The notes under the pieces are model-generated. The model was given only the letters and a program-made list of their open reading frames with translations. It had not been told where the DNA came from and searched no databases. Made by a program: the position numbers and the translations under genes. A DNA stretch of 64,000 nt from Burkholderia sp. HI2500 (GTDB lineage Bacteria; Pseudomonadota; Gammaproteobacteria; Burkholderiales; Burkholderiaceae), in contig NZ_NKFL01000004.1 in NCBI RefSeq assembly GCF_002223055.1, positions 1,550,001 to 1,614,000 on the forward strand, written 5' to 3'. Shown here piece by piece: positions 21,835-41,847 of this stretch; the stretch's first letter is position 1, and the number at the start of each line of letters is the position of its first letter.

Positions 21835-22266
21835 TCATTGCATGAACTGTTCGTTACCGATCAGGCCGATCTTGGTCGCGCCCACGCGTTGCGCGGAGGC
21901 GAGCACGGCGGCCACGTCCTTGTACGGCACCAGCTTGTTGGGACGCAGATGAATCTCCGCCTGCACGGGTTCCGCCGCCACCTGGGTCAATTTCGACTCG
22001 AGCGCCGCGCGGTCCGGCACCGGCGCGCCGTTCCATGTCGTCGTGCCGTCGAAGTCGATGTCGATCTGCACGATTTCCGGCGGCGTGGCCGGCGGCGGCG
22101 GATTACCCACCGGCAGGTCCATCTTCACCGAATGCATCTGAATCGGGATCGTGATGATCAGCATGATCAGCAACACCAGCATCACGTCGATCAGCGGCGT
22201 GGTGTTGATATCGACCATCACTTCCGGTTCGGCATTGCTCCCGCCCGAAGGCACGTTCATTCCCAT
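21835..22266 (-). CDS. exbD: Biopolymer transport protein ExbD (second copy)
   Basis: 143-aa inner-membrane protein with a single membrane helix near the N-terminus (INTTPLIDVMLVLLIMLIIT). The Asp in that helix (PLIDVML) is the protonatable residue that couples proton flow to TonB. The C-terminal periplasmic domain ends ATKIGLIGNEQFMQ. The start at 22266 (MGMNVPSGG) has AGGAG 6 bp upstream; the frame to 22287 only extends into the repeat. It is distinct from the first exbD and is separated from it by 127 bp containing one unit of the covarying repeat. Confidence 0.93.
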   Translation of the reverse strand: MGMNVPSGGSNAEPEVMVDINTTPLIDVMLVLLIMLIITIPIQMHSVKMDLPVGNPPPPATPPEIVQIDIDFDGTTTWNGAPVPDRAALESKLTQVAAEPVQAEIHLRPNKLVPYKDVAAVLASAQRVGATKIGLIGNEQFMQ

Positions 22267-22280
22267 CGTCGACTCCTGTC

Positions 22281-22329
22281 GATCCACGTTAGCGCTTTAG
22301 CGCTTACGTGGATCCCATGCTTCGCGGTC
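22281..22329 (-). repeat. Covarying 49-bp repeat, single unit between exbD genes
   Basis: Arm GATCCACG, core TTAGCGCTTTAGCGCTTA, matching arm CGTGGATC, then tail CCATGCTTCGCGGTC; a partial new arm (GATCCAGCG) follows. The arms are perfectly complementary here. Same family as the units at 39101 and 41667-41847. Orientation given by the surrounding operon. Confidence 0.9.
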
Positions 22330-30036: not shown

Positions 30037-30074
30037 AAAAAACAACGCCGGAAGCGCTGTTGCGCTCCCGGCGT
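30037..30074 (-). terminator. Rho-independent terminator after the saccharopine dehydrogenase-like gene
   Basis: On the minus strand a 13-bp stem with one G-T pair (ACGCCGGGAGCGC / GCGCTTCCGGCGT, loop AACA) is followed by TG and six T. It lies 34 bp beyond the stop at 30108. A weaker CGGCC/GGCCG hairpin followed by TCTTTTT at 30004-30026 could end the convergent ATPase transcript. Confidence 0.85.
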
Positions 30075-30107
30075 CGTACGGCCCTCGTGCCAGAGGCTGA
30101 CGGGTGG

Positions 30108-37963: not shown

Positions 37964-39007
37964 TCAGCTTGCGGTCGACGCGCGCGCAACCAGCTCGCCC
38001 GGCAACAGCGAGACGCGTACGTCACCCGCCGCGCCGTCGATCCGCTCGTGCACGAATTCGACGGCCTTGTAGCCGATTTCGTAGGTCGGCTGGCGGATCG
38101 TCGTGATCCCGATCAGCTCGGCCCATTCCGGATCGTCGATCGACAGCAGCGCCGCCCGCTGCTGCCATGCGGTGCCGAAACGCGCGCGCAGGTGGCGCGC
38201 GATCGCGAGTGCGACCGGCGCGTTCGCGGCGAACAGCGCCGCGCGCACGCCGCGCCGTGCCGCGTCGTCGATGCGGGCATCGATGTCGGCCAGCGCCGCC
38301 GTGACCGCGTCGGGTTCGTTCAGGTCGAGCACGACCGTCGACGGCACCGTCAGCCCGCGCGCCGCCAGTGCCGTGCGGAACGCGGCCTCGCGCAGGCGCC
38401 GCGAGCTGACGCGCTCGAACGGCTGCACGACGAAATGGATCGCGTCGAAACCGTGTTCGACCAGGTGCGCGAGGGCCGTCTCGATCGCGTCGGCGTTGTC
38501 GAGGCCGATCAGGTCGGCCTCGAAGCCTTCGACCGTGCGGTCGACGAGCACGGCCGGGATGCCGGCGCCGCGCAGCGGGCGCAGCACGTCCTCGTCGGCG
38601 CCGAGCGCATTGACGATCAGCCCTTCGACGCGGTAGGTCGTGAGCAGCTGCAGGAAGCGGCGCTCCATCTCGACTTCATTCGCCGCGTGGCAGATCAGCG
38701 GCATGTAGCCGAGCGCGTGGCATGCGGCCTCGACGCCCTGCAGCACTTCGACGGTATAGGGATTGGTCAGGTCGGCCGCGAGCATGCCGAGCAAGCGGTT
38801 GCGGCCGCGCTTGAGCCCGCGCGCCATCTGGTTCGGCCGGTAGTTGAGCCGCGCGATCGCCGCTTCGATCCGCTGGCGCAGATCGGTGGACAGCACGTGC
38901 GTCTCGCCGTTCAGGTAGCGCGACACACTGGTCTTGCCCGTGCCGGCCTCGCGCGCGACGTCGCTGATCGTCGCCGGACGCGTCGTGATTGGTTGCGAAT
39001 CGGTCAC
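37964..39007 (-). CDS. ptxS: LacI-family repressor of 2-ketogluconate catabolism (PtxS-like)
   Basis: 347-aa repressor. The LacI helix-turn-helix (ATISDVAREAGTGKTSVSRY) is followed by the hinge helix region and a periplasmic-binding-protein-like effector domain (NRLLGMLAADLTNPYTVEVL, IRQPTYEIGYKAVEFVHERI). The GTG start at 39007 has GAGG about 8 bp upstream. In Pseudomonas, PtxS represses kguEKTD and its own gene and is released by 2-ketogluconate; here it sits directly after kguD on the same strand. The palindrome at 43715 fits the known PtxS site. Confidence 0.9.
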   Translation of the reverse strand: MTDSQPITTRPATISDVAREAGTGKTSVSRYLNGETHVLSTDLRQRIEAAIARLNYRPNQMARGLKRGRNRLLGMLAADLTNPYTVEVLQGVEAACHALGYMPLICHAANEVEMERRFLQLLTTYRVEGLIVNALGADEDVLRPLRGAGIPAVLVDRTVEGFEADLIGLDNADAIETALAHLVEHGFDAIHFVVQPFERVSSRRLREAAFRTALAARGLTVPSTVVLDLNEPDAVTAALADIDARIDDAARRGVRAALFAANAPVALAIARHLRARFGTAWQQRAALLSIDDPEWAELIGITTIRQPTYEIGYKAVEFVHERIDGAAGDVRVSLLPGELVARASTAS

Positions 39008-39100: not shown

Positions 39101-39157
39101 GGTCAGCGTTAGCGCTTTAGCGCTTACGCTGGTCCCATGCTTCGCGGTCGATCAGCG
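39101..39157 (-). repeat. Covarying 49-bp repeat, single unit before ptxS
   Basis: Arm GGTCAGCG, core TTAGCGCTTTAGCGCTTA, arm CGCTGGTC, tail CCATGCTTCGCGGTC, then a second left arm GATCAGCG with no core behind it, as if a neighbouring unit had been cut. Arms pair with G-T wobbles. Orientation given by the surrounding genes. Confidence 0.88.
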
Positions 39158-39396: not shown

Positions 39397-40371
39397 TCAA
39401 GCGCGCGCGAGCGCATCCGGATTGACGAGATTCGTGCGCAGCGTGCCGGCCAGCGCGCCGACCAGGTTTTCCGCGGCGCAACGCGCCATCGCGTGGCGCG
39501 TCTCGTGCGTCGCCGAGCCGATATGCGGCAGCGCGACGACGTTCTTCATCTGCAGCAGCGGCGAATCCGCCGCCAGCGGCTCCTTCTCGAACACGTCGAG
39601 CCCCGCGCCGCGGATCGTGCCCGCGCGCAGCGCATCGATCAGCGCGGCTTCGTCGACCACCGGCCCGCGCGACGCGTTGATCAGGATCGCACCGCGCTTC
39701 ATCTTCGCGAATTCGGCCGCACCGATCAGGTGGTGCGTTTCCGGCGACAGCGGCACCTGCAGGCACACGAAATCCGATTGCGCGAGCAGTTCGTCGAGCG
39801 TCACGCGCCGCGCGCCGTACTGCGTCTCGGCTTCCGCGTGCGCGGAGCGGTTCGCGTACAGCACCTGCATCCGGAAGCCGAGCGCCGCGCGGCGCGCGAC
39901 CGCGCCGCCGATCCGCCCGAGCCCGACGATGCCGAGCGTCTTGCCCTGCACGTCGGTGCCGTACAGGTCGGGGCCGATGCTGTGATGCCAGTGGCCGGCC
40001 TTCACCCACTCGGCCAGCTCGACCACGCGTCGCGCGGACGCGAGGATCAGCGAGAACACCGTATCGGCGGTCGACTCGGTCAGCACGTCCGGCGTATGCG
40101 CGAGCACGATCCCGCGCCGCGTGAGATCCGCGACGTCGAAGTTGTCGTAGCCCACCGAGATCGTCGACCACGCCTTCAGCCGCGGCGCGCGGTCGAGCAT
40201 CTGCGGCGTGACCTTCAGGCTCGCGCCGATCGCGCCGTCCGCGTCGCCGAGCGCATCGGCAAGGGCGGCGGCGCCGTCGGCCTGCACGACGTCCGCATGC
40301 TCGCGCAGGTACGCGAGGACGTCATCGGGCAGCGGCTTGTACGCGACGATACGGGGCTTCATCGGATTCAT
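39397..40371 (-). CDS. kguD: 2-ketogluconate 6-phosphate / 2-ketogluconate reductase (KguD)
   Basis: 324-aa D-isomer-specific 2-hydroxyacid dehydrogenase. The NAD(P)-binding domain has [20 protein letters not shown] (about residues 145-165); catalytic residues are Arg in [10 protein letters not shown], Glu in [10 protein letters not shown] and His in [12 protein letters not shown]. In this operon it should reduce 2-keto-6-phosphogluconate to 6-phosphogluconate. The ATG at 40371 overlaps the kguT stop (ATGA); an alternative ATG at 40362 (MKPRIVAYK) is better spaced from AAGGA and may be used instead. By sequence alone it could be a glyoxylate/hydroxypyruvate reductase; the neighbours decide. 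Confidence 0.9.
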
Positions 40372-41648
40372 TTTCCTTGCAGCGGCGTCGCGAGCGGATG
40401 CGCATCGCGCGCCTGGGGTTTGACGGACAGCGTGAGGATCACCGCGGCGACGAGCGCGGCGCTCATGAACGCATACGACGCGACGGGCGAGCCGGTCGCC
40501 CCGTTCAGGTAGCCGACGAAGTACGAGCCCACGAACGAGCCGAGCGCGCCCATGCTGTTGATCAGCGCCATGGCGCCGCCGGCGACGTTCTTCGGCAGCA
40601 GTTCCGGCACGATCGCGAAGAACGGGCCGTACGGCGCGTACATCGCGGCGCCGGCCACGACCAGCAGCGCATACGAGATCCAGAAGTGCGACGAGCCGAG
40701 TGCGTACGATGCGGCGAACGCAGCCGCGCCGATCAGCAGGAACGGCCACACGAAACCGCGGCGGGAGCCGACCTTGTCGGACGCCCACGATGCGGCAATC
40801 ATCGCGATCGTCGCGGCGAGATACGGCAGCGCCGACAACCAGCCGGTCGCGACCATCCCGAGGTCGGAGCCGTTCTTGACGATCGACGGCAGCCACAGCA
40901 CGAAGCCGTACACGCCGATGCTCCAGCAGAAATACTGTGCGCACAGCTTGATCACGGCCGGCGAGCGGAATGCTTCGCCGTAGTTGCGCACGGGCTTGAT
41001 CGCTGCCTGCTCGGCCGCGAGTGCGGCGTCGAGGTCACGCTTTTCCTGCGCGTTGAGCCACGGCGAATCGGCCGGCTTGTCCTGCACGAGGAACCACCAG
41101 CACACGGCCCAGAGCACAGCCGGCACGCCTTCGGCGATGAACATGTGGCGCCAGCCGAATTCGTGCACGAGATAGCCCGACACGATCGACATCCACAGCA
41201 CCGTGACCGGGTTGCCGAGGATCAGGAACGTGTTCGCGCGCGAGCGTTCGTTCTTCGTGAACCAGTTGCTGATGTAGATCAGCATCGCCGGCATCACGGC
41301 CGCCTCGACGACGCCGAGCACGAAGCGGATCGCCATCAGCGACGGGATGTTGCTGACCACGCCCGTGAGCGCCGCGCACGCGCCCCACAGGATGAGGCTG
41401 ACGAACACGAGCTTCTTCACGCTGCGGCGTTCCGCGTAGATCGCGCCGGGAATCTGGAAGAAGAAGTAGCCGAGGAAGAACAGCGCGCCGATCAGCGACG
41501 ACAGGCCCTTGCTGATCCCGAGGTCCTGGTTGATGCCGGCCGCGGCCGCGAACCCGTAGTTCGCGCGGTCGAGGTAGGCGAGGCTGTACGTGATGAAGAC
41601 GATCGGCATGATCGTCCACCAGCGGCGGGCAGCGAGAGAGTTGGCCAT
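40368..41648 (-). CDS. kguT: 2-ketogluconate MFS transporter (KguT)
   Basis: 426-aa major facilitator of the anion:cation symporter (phthalate permease-like) group with about twelve membrane helices. [40 protein letters not shown] and [20 protein letters not shown] are typical. In the kgu operon it imports 2-ketogluconate across the inner membrane. AGGAGACATTCTG precedes the ATG. Its 5' side is separated from kguK by 261 bp packed with the four-unit covarying repeat array; its stop overlaps kguD. Confidence 0.9.
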
Positions 41649-41666
41649 CAGAATGTCTCCTGTGTC

Positions 41667-41847
41667 GGCCGGAGTTAGCGCTTTAGCGCTTACTCCGGCC
41701 CCATGCTTCGCGGTCGATCAGAGTTAGCGCTTTAGCGCTTACGCTGATCCCATGCTTCGCGGTCGGCCGGAGTTAGCGCTTTAGCGCTTATTCCGGCCCC
41801 ATGCTTCGCGGTCGATCAGCGTTAGCGCTTTAGCGCTTACGCTGATC
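41667..41847 (-). repeat. Tandem array of four covarying 49-bp hairpin repeats
   Basis: Units start at 41667, 41716, 41765 and 41814. Each is arm, core TTAGCGCTTTAGCGCTTA, complementary arm, and tail CCATGCTTCGCGGTC. Left/right arms: unit 1 GGCCGGAG/CTCCGGCC; unit 2 GATCAGAG/CGCTGATC; unit 3 GGCCGGAG/TTCCGGCC; unit 4 GATCAGCG/CGCTGATC, after which the tail is lost. Two arm types alternate A-B-A-B and arms co-vary. Lies inside the kgu operon between kguK and kguT. Confidence 0.95.

Follow-up and report, generated by a model that had tools for sequence, protein, structure and literature searches.

What raises the question at this locus is a short tandem repeat whose hairpin arms change from unit to unit together with their partners: does it belong to the REP/BIME-type palindromes, or does it act as a structure in the message of the gene behind it? 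The repeat lies at positions 41667-41847 of the 64,000-nucleotide stretch of Burkholderia sp. HI2500 DNA analysed here (the window), where a preliminary description had reported four 49-bp units with a constant core. Four units at a spacing of 49 bp, with identical 18-nt cores, were indeed found. Allowing up to 3 mismatches, the 18-nt core gave 6 matches in the window, all of them exact, compared to 0 in 100 shuffles. Read on the gene strand, which is the minus strand, a unit of the array has the form GACCGCGAAGCATGG-arm-TAAGCGCTAAAGCGCTAA-arm', and the last unit is followed by GACACAGGAGACATTCTGATG, a Shine-Dalgarno (SD) sequence and a start codon. The SD-proximal unit 1 (41667..41700) carries core TAAGCGCTAAAGCGCTAA and arms GGCCGGAG/CTCCGGCC that pair perfectly; unit 2 (41716..41749) has arms GATCAGCG/CTCTGATC, unit 3 (41765..41798) has GGCCGGAA/CTCCGGCC, and the gene-distal unit 4 (41814..41847) has GATCAGCG/CGCTGATC, again perfect. 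The linker GACCGCGAAGCATGG separates units 1 and 2 (41701..41715), 2 and 3 (41750..41764), and 3 and 4 (41799..41813). A constant tail had also been proposed; CCATGCTTCGCGGTC follows units 1-3 as described, but unit 4 has no tail and shows CCGTACC in its place. The alternation of two arm kinds was confirmed, and this A-B-A-B order gives a 98-bp period, which is what a duplicated dimer would give. Two further arrays, L324 and L343, likewise alternate two unit types with different linkers, and the conserved gene downstream of both is presumably atpC.

The stronger claim, that the arms always match their partners, held for 30 of 32 arm positions in the array, which are Watson-Crick paired. The exceptions are one mismatch in unit 2 (arms GATCAGAG/CGCTGATC) and one pair in unit 3 (arms GGCCGGAG/TTCCGGCC) that is G-T on the plus strand and A-C on the gene strand. 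A third arm kind expected elsewhere in the window was located in a single minus-strand hairpin at 22281..22314 (GATCCACG/CGTGGATC), followed by an SD at 22273-22277 and the start codon of an ExbD/TolR-family gene at 22264-22266. We additionally found a fourth kind, GGTCAGCG/CGCTGGTC, in a single minus-strand hairpin at 39101..39134, which on the gene strand reads GACCAGCG/CGCTGACC with one A-C, followed by GACAGGGAG; its core ends 101 nt before the GTG taken as the start of a LacI-family gene (37964-39007). All three window loci thus lie upstream of minus-strand genes, and two of the three are placed directly against an SD, with the gene start about 20 nt further on. Behind the array, the SD (AGGAG, 41657..41661, read from the sequence) lies 5 nt from the end of unit 1 and serves an MFS transporter gene (40368..41648, minus strand, start at 41648), which we take to be kguT-like. 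Its product shares 99% identity with proteins recorded for B. aenigmatica and B. lata, which places the genome in Burkholderia, and the minus-strand genes around the array encode a PfkB-family kinase, this MFS transporter, a 2-hydroxyacid dehydrogenase and a LacI-family regulator.

The consensus unit, which occurs singly or in tandem at a spacing near 49 nt, can form a 34-nt hairpin. Eight variable arm pairs and a U-A pair are followed by a mostly conserved A.A mismatch, and 5 inner pairs close a URAA loop. Folding energies of the window's four units range from -17 to -27 kcal/mol (z -4.8 to -7.7), unit 1 being the most stable (-27.2 kcal/mol; z -7.7), and the 231-nt leader of the window array gives a fold z of -8.0. 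In the minimum-energy fold of this leader some pairing joins one tandem unit to another, and the spacer pairs with part of the SD. Among 144 distinct SD-proximal and interior units the loop was CTAAAG in 85 and CTGAAG in 39, and the A.A mismatch was kept in 49/57 distinct SD-proximal and 64/87 interior units.

To place the element in the genome and the genus, a pattern search of the 8.26-Mb window genome with up to 3 mismatches was run, returning 28 places, 9 of them exact; since the reversed control gave 19, the weaker matches mean little on their own. The search was replaced by a covariance model, R1, built from 25 units of the window genome. R1 gave 40 matches in that genome at E up to 0.1, some of them the palindrome read back on the other strand. 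Matches were present in 62 of 65 Burkholderia genomes, with 3 to 81 per positive genome and none in the other three. Within Burkholderiaceae, 121 of 299 genomes were positive, and these fall into 8 of 25 genera. A draw of 200 genomes from the order yielded two positives, the window's own and one other of Burkholderiaceae, and a draw of 150 from the phylum yielded the window's own, so that no match fell outside Burkholderiaceae in either draw. Scans of more than 40 genomes used stricter filters and scored few candidates per genome, and their counts are lower bounds. The element is dispensable, since three of the 65 genus genomes have no match and several have no hairpin at nadA, the conserved gene considered below.

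The units take a fixed place relative to the genes they precede. On the gene strand a unit reads GCATGG-arm-TAAGCGCTRAAGCGCTAA-arm'-GAC, the last unit of an array abuts the SD, and the orientation of the array relative to the downstream gene is fixed. An SD-bearing start, defined as an SD-like word plus a start codon within 60 nt opening an ORF of at least 80 codons, was found behind 51 of 62 sampled arrays, at 10-21 nt in 50 and at 53 nt in one, compared to 5.3% of positions drawn at random from these loci (1058 of 20000; units not excluded). The sample leans towards intact units, because 60 further loci were chosen from the highest-scoring listed matches of the genus and arrays whose best unit had more than 3 core mismatches were dropped, leaving the 62; nor are the loci independent draws, the same aldehyde dehydrogenase start occurring 8 times among the 60. 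The 11 exceptions comprise three with GACAGGAGACA and an ATG whose ORF is too short, three with GACAGAGGAG, whose sequence is that of the LacI-gene type, and five more: one with GACAGGGAAGGGTAATG, a fragment of an array, two antisense copies from the mosaic, and one that received no call. In the window genome, where 14 loci were examined, the core of the SD-proximal unit ends 21-28 nt before the start codon in 11. Of the remaining three, one precedes the LacI-type gene, one lies 46 nt before a citrate-synthase-family gene, and L019 is an antisense copy in the mosaic. At L343 the array starts about 10 nt behind what seems to be the end of an upstream ORF, so not every copy stands at a promoter.

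The genes behind the element look mostly metabolic. Those over the NCBIfam cut-off in the window genome are hpaD and trpA; below equivalog cut-offs are a LacI-family regulator, two MFS transporters, an ExbD/TolR protein, an aldehyde dehydrogenase, acyl-CoA dehydrogenases and a sigma-54 activator, and Pfam matches identify NadA, a citrate-synthase family enzyme and an alpha/beta hydrolase. Others, judged by their N-termini, we assume to be atpC, purE, moaE, pobA and a lactate permease.

Arm alignments and covariance counts showed that the matching of arms first seen in the window holds across the genome and the genus, and arms varying independently of their partners were not found in SD-proximal units. 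Among the 25 units of the window genome, 93.4% of cells were paired and 9 of 14 pairs had changed on both sides. Across 48 distinct SD-proximal arm pairs, 92.4% of positions were Watson-Crick, whereas 1000 shuffles gave 66.1% on average and never more than 72.9%; these units are partly model matches and thus lean towards pairing. Hairpins were perfect in 131 of 153 SD-proximal units versus 52 of 169 interior units, which include mixed and imperfect ones. Among the mismatches, G-U and A-C occurred in ratios of 9:11 in SD-proximal units, 11:11 at nadA and 110:43 in interior units. Equal numbers in SD-proximal units may count against selection for pairing in the sense-strand RNA, which should give a G-U excess, and the excess in interior units is confounded, since these hold mixed hairpins and have ancestry in common. 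For distal nadA units the larger G-U counts are biased as well, those units having been placed by maximising pairs including G-U. Mutation itself showed no strong strand bias in 130 linkers (C>T 17 and A>G 13, versus G>A 26 and T>C 0).

Orthologous sites were compared at nadA, picked as a conserved gene carrying the element, whose start was located in 64 of 65 genomes. GACAGGA stands at a fixed place in 49 of the 64 leaders, and 44 of those contain the canonical 34-nt hairpin frame, a selection that favours intact hairpins; in the other 20 leaders the hairpin is shifted, degenerate or, by eye, absent. The 44 leaders carry 27 different arm pairs, and their 616 pair cells comprise 584 Watson-Crick, 11 G-U, 11 A-C and 10 other combinations. 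In 40 distinct rows 96.8% of cells were paired and 63 cells had changed on both sides, compared to 17.3 in shuffles, and RNAalifold, unaided, predicted 13 of the 14 pairs. These results show covariation in support of a common helix at orthologous places. The usual inference from such covariation is weakened, however, because the arm changes are largely en bloc. On a nadA gene tree of 43 tips (L250 was left out for an indel) the whole arm pair changed at least 32 times, mostly on both sides. Summed column changes were 65 in the 5' arm, 58 in the 3' arm, 46 in the 18-nt core and 3 in the 16-nt SD and spacer, with a mean of 2.87 changes per column at third codon positions. Pair 2 made 12 switches between A-T and G-C, yet none of the 43 tips shows it in a mixed state; pair 6 does contain mixed states (A-C 4, G-T 2, C-C 1). 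Recombination may disturb this tree and inflate the counts of change, but two results hold because they are independent of its shape. The mean number of both-sided arm changes did not grow with distance, being 1.97 at a CDS distance of 0.03-0.06 and 2.04 at 0.15 or more, and the closest genome pair (0.013) differed by three both-sided arm changes, with zero one-sided and zero core changes. Some nadA leaders, L216, L265 and L267 among them, also have a terminator-like CCCCGCG..CGGGG hairpin with a T-run upstream of the array, a possible attenuator.

We next compared arm identity in 134 SD-proximal units from 53 genomes. When one gene was compared between genomes, 84 of 1012 comparisons gave identical arms, and when different genes were compared between genomes, 648 of 7714 did; for different genes within a genome the figure was 25 of 185, a level reached in 9 of 500 label shuffles. 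Orthologous leaders therefore keep no visible memory of their arms, and there is a modest within-genome excess. The units within an array also differ in how far they have decayed. At nadA the SD-adjacent unit is the best preserved, with 1.43 core mismatches on average and Watson-Crick pairing in 7.35 of the 8 arm pairs, followed by the second (3.45 and 6.27) and the third (6.94 and 4.47). Several interior units (L216, L226, L254, L263) are mixed hairpins that join a 5' arm of one type to the 3' arm found in a neighbouring unit, which is what recombination through the identical core would leave. At kguT, arrays are present in the window and in B. paludis, and by eye we recognised one degenerate unit in B. 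aenigmatica and two in B. arboris; R1 found one of the B. arboris units (E 0.004), and the strict scan lists none for either species.

Recombination between copies is thus suggested by the mixed interior hairpins, the en-bloc switches and the lost arm memory at orthologous sites. The preliminary description had offered selection on the structure or a structure-dependent copying process, which the observations support in part. Arm changes are mostly en bloc and faster than point mutation would allow, so a large share of the covariation probably stems from ready-made units being replaced or recombined. Recombination or gene conversion among copies, combined with selection for a folded SD-proximal unit, is the best single account. 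Hairpin-templated correction may contribute, but leaves the kept A.A mismatch and the decay of distal units unexplained.

Known families did not accommodate the element. At gathering score Rfam had 0 matches in the window and 0 in 7 loci with the element, and a weak sub-threshold listing was at chance level. A riboswitch was set aside by judgement for the size, the tandem arrays and the variety of genes. The comparison with REP/BIME elements, which the preliminary description had favoured, rests on excerpts of PMC2817692: both are short imperfect palindromes, present in many, here apparently extragenic, copies, in which complementary changes keep the pairing. REP palindromes are imperfect, 20-40 bp long and extragenic; here the hairpin has 34 nt, positive genomes of the genus have 3-81 matches each, and antisense mosaic copies in one genome of another genus of the family (G096) lie in open frames. 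The palindrome of a REP has GTAG or GTGG as its head (PMC2817692, as excerpted), at its foot, whereas here there is no such head and the hairpin is flanked by ATGG (5') and GAC (3'). Tandem units all point one way in the arrays examined by eye, unlike BIMEs, whose regularly spaced copies alternate in orientation, no RAYT gene flanked by units was found, and location is set by the downstream SD. The element departs from REP/BIME on three features tested, and that assignment was abandoned. RAYT/Y1_Tnp was also rejected as a partner: all 7 genomes tried have a PF01797 match, 6 of them over the cut-off, although R1 found no element in three of the 7, and R1 at E up to 1 found no unit in 8 loci of about 3 kb around PF01797 genes. 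The Y1_Tnp protein (L208-L215) is alike in the three loci read (L210, L213, L214) and is likely a domesticated IS200-like gene unrelated to the repeat.

Other repeats were compared from partial texts. BOX elements of Streptococcus pneumoniae, as described in excerpts of PMC3049150, share variable tandem modules, predicted RNA stem-loops and copies near genes, with effects on expression cited there; compared by description only, they differ in lineage and in their boxA/boxC ends, none of which was seen here, whereas our module ends against the SD and its arms covary. BRE (excerpts of PMC3110155) is also beta-proteobacterial, tandem and variable in number, with some copies overlapping ORF ends, but it is about 90 bp long, and it was compared with the unit and the G096 mosaic by description only; Burkholderia is named 0 times in its text. 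The TAACTGA repeats of Beggiatoaceae, from what PMC4679880 gives in excerpt, overlap the expected ribosome-binding site, but as a 7-nt direct repeat without a hairpin. Excerpts of PMC12326997 (palindromic GC-rich repeats at penA) and PMC2267715 gave no sign of the hairpin unit. A matching record is a CRISPR repeat of Paraburkholderia terrae, GCGTAAGCGCTAAAGCGCTAACGCC, with cas genes given as NI (PMC5968390, table 4, seen in excerpt), which equals the core of the hairpin unit plus part of its arms. We infer that this entry is likely better read as an array of hairpin units; a CRISPR was rejected, as the would-be spacers are conserved linkers and arms and not unique. Beyond this table, the open-access literature, as far as its texts were accessible and with most subscription papers outside its scope, held no description of the element.

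Taken together, these results suggest a family of unrecorded mRNA leader elements before many genes, and we call the element a small interspersed palindromic repeat with leader-element behaviour. The reading we favour, at about even confidence, is a predicted cis-acting 5'-UTR hairpin family of Burkholderia and close relatives that acts in mRNA. The hairpin would act on translation initiation or on mRNA stability of the downstream gene, a role to which the orientation, the SD spacing and the L343 copy behind an upstream ORF point. Selection would keep the SD-proximal unit folded, the loop and the mismatch would be the likely recognition surface, and the arms would be free to vary while paired. 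Arrays would grow and shrink, and arms would be exchanged, by recombination or gene conversion via the invariant core and linkers, so that arms would change en bloc and not by single bases. More tentatively, and as a possibility we regard as doubtful, the copies could form a genus-wide post-transcriptional regulon with one putative RNA-binding reader, in which a near-invariant loop and the A.A mismatch would stand against the SD of dozens of metabolic genes and the arms would be an exchangeable handle. Turnover of the arms would be so fast that, between genomes, orthologous leaders have arms in common no more often than unrelated leaders do, and leaders would evolve by exchanging entire matched hairpins while the position and recognition surface stay fixed.

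A pure leader role poorly fits the antisense mosaic copies of G096, a genome with 151 matches, where 22 of 30 fetched copies lie antisense in a larger dispersed mosaic. Its other strand encodes the open frame xPHAHxRSLSTGVSALALTPVPCKAPPEGA, perhaps a leader peptide or an N-terminal extension, and 17 of these 22 copies have an in-frame ATG placed two or three codons ahead of PHA. Also weighing against the leader reading are the partly paired SD in the leader fold and the dispensability of the element. Since the module lives in this mosaic too, a rival reading is a REP- or MITE-like palindromic repeat of the DNA, non-autonomous and either mobile or selfish, which we judge unlikely. Its arms would serve a single-strand-specific enzyme, and the place before the SD would reflect target choice or the survival of harmless insertions. 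A copy number ranging from 0 to at least 151 per genome and the missing G-U excess in SD-proximal units agree with such a repeat; the fixed orientation and spacing to the SD, the old shared positions at nadA and kguT, and the lack of any unit at the Y1_Tnp genes found (the only transposase family searched) do not. The equal G-U and A-C counts would agree with neutral, functionless leader palindromes whose complementarity comes from hairpin-templated (quasipalindrome) correction and recombination during replication, and so would both-sided switches without intermediates, such as the 12 at nadA pair 2. We consider this quite improbable, given that correction should remove the A.A mismatch kept in 49/57 distinct SD-proximal units, that distal units decay and SD-proximal ones stay intact, and that the position is fixed. 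Mosaic copies were seen at L089, L094-L109 and L118-L122 (G096) and, singly, at L019 and L055 (window genome) and at L353 and L354 (G006).

Two further explanations were considered. CU-rich Hfq-type sRNAs (RF02278) might pair with AGGAGACA, the hairpin exposing or shielding the SD; the genome contains five RF02278 double-hairpin matches (L123-L127, G000), four over the cut-off, with UGUCUCCU-like stretches that are complementary to AGGAGACA, and excerpts of a 2017 study (PMC5688073) report predicted interactions over ribosome-binding sites. That complementarity spans the common SD and not the hairpin, however, and such a platform seems to us very unlikely. Least probable of all, and hardly credible, is a double-stranded DNA operator for a dimeric regulator, with incidental arms. 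The core is near-palindromic, and one of the copies in the window precedes a LacI-family gene, but an operator has no need of arm complementarity with free base identity, and copies stand against the SD, one inspected copy just behind an upstream ORF.

If the favoured leader reading is right, many Burkholderia genes, among them nadA, the kguT-like transporter gene, hpaD, trpA and the aldehyde dehydrogenase gene, have in common an unrecorded leader element, which should govern how they are translated or how long their mRNA lasts and may mark out a regulon with a putative reader. The helix pairs as well as those of classical structured RNAs, yet much of its change looks like en-bloc exchange, and covariation statistics that assume independent compensatory mutations would overstate the evidence here. 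The orthologous sites make the weight of selection, gene conversion and hairpin-templated repair measurable. On the gene strand, many units, including those at 41667-41847, also contain a five-codon frame, ATG GGN NNN NNG TAA, that ends at the start of the core. Elsewhere in the window, the minus strand at 30037-30076 carries a terminator-like structure, a GC-rich hairpin with TTTTTT behind it, that has no relation to the repeat.
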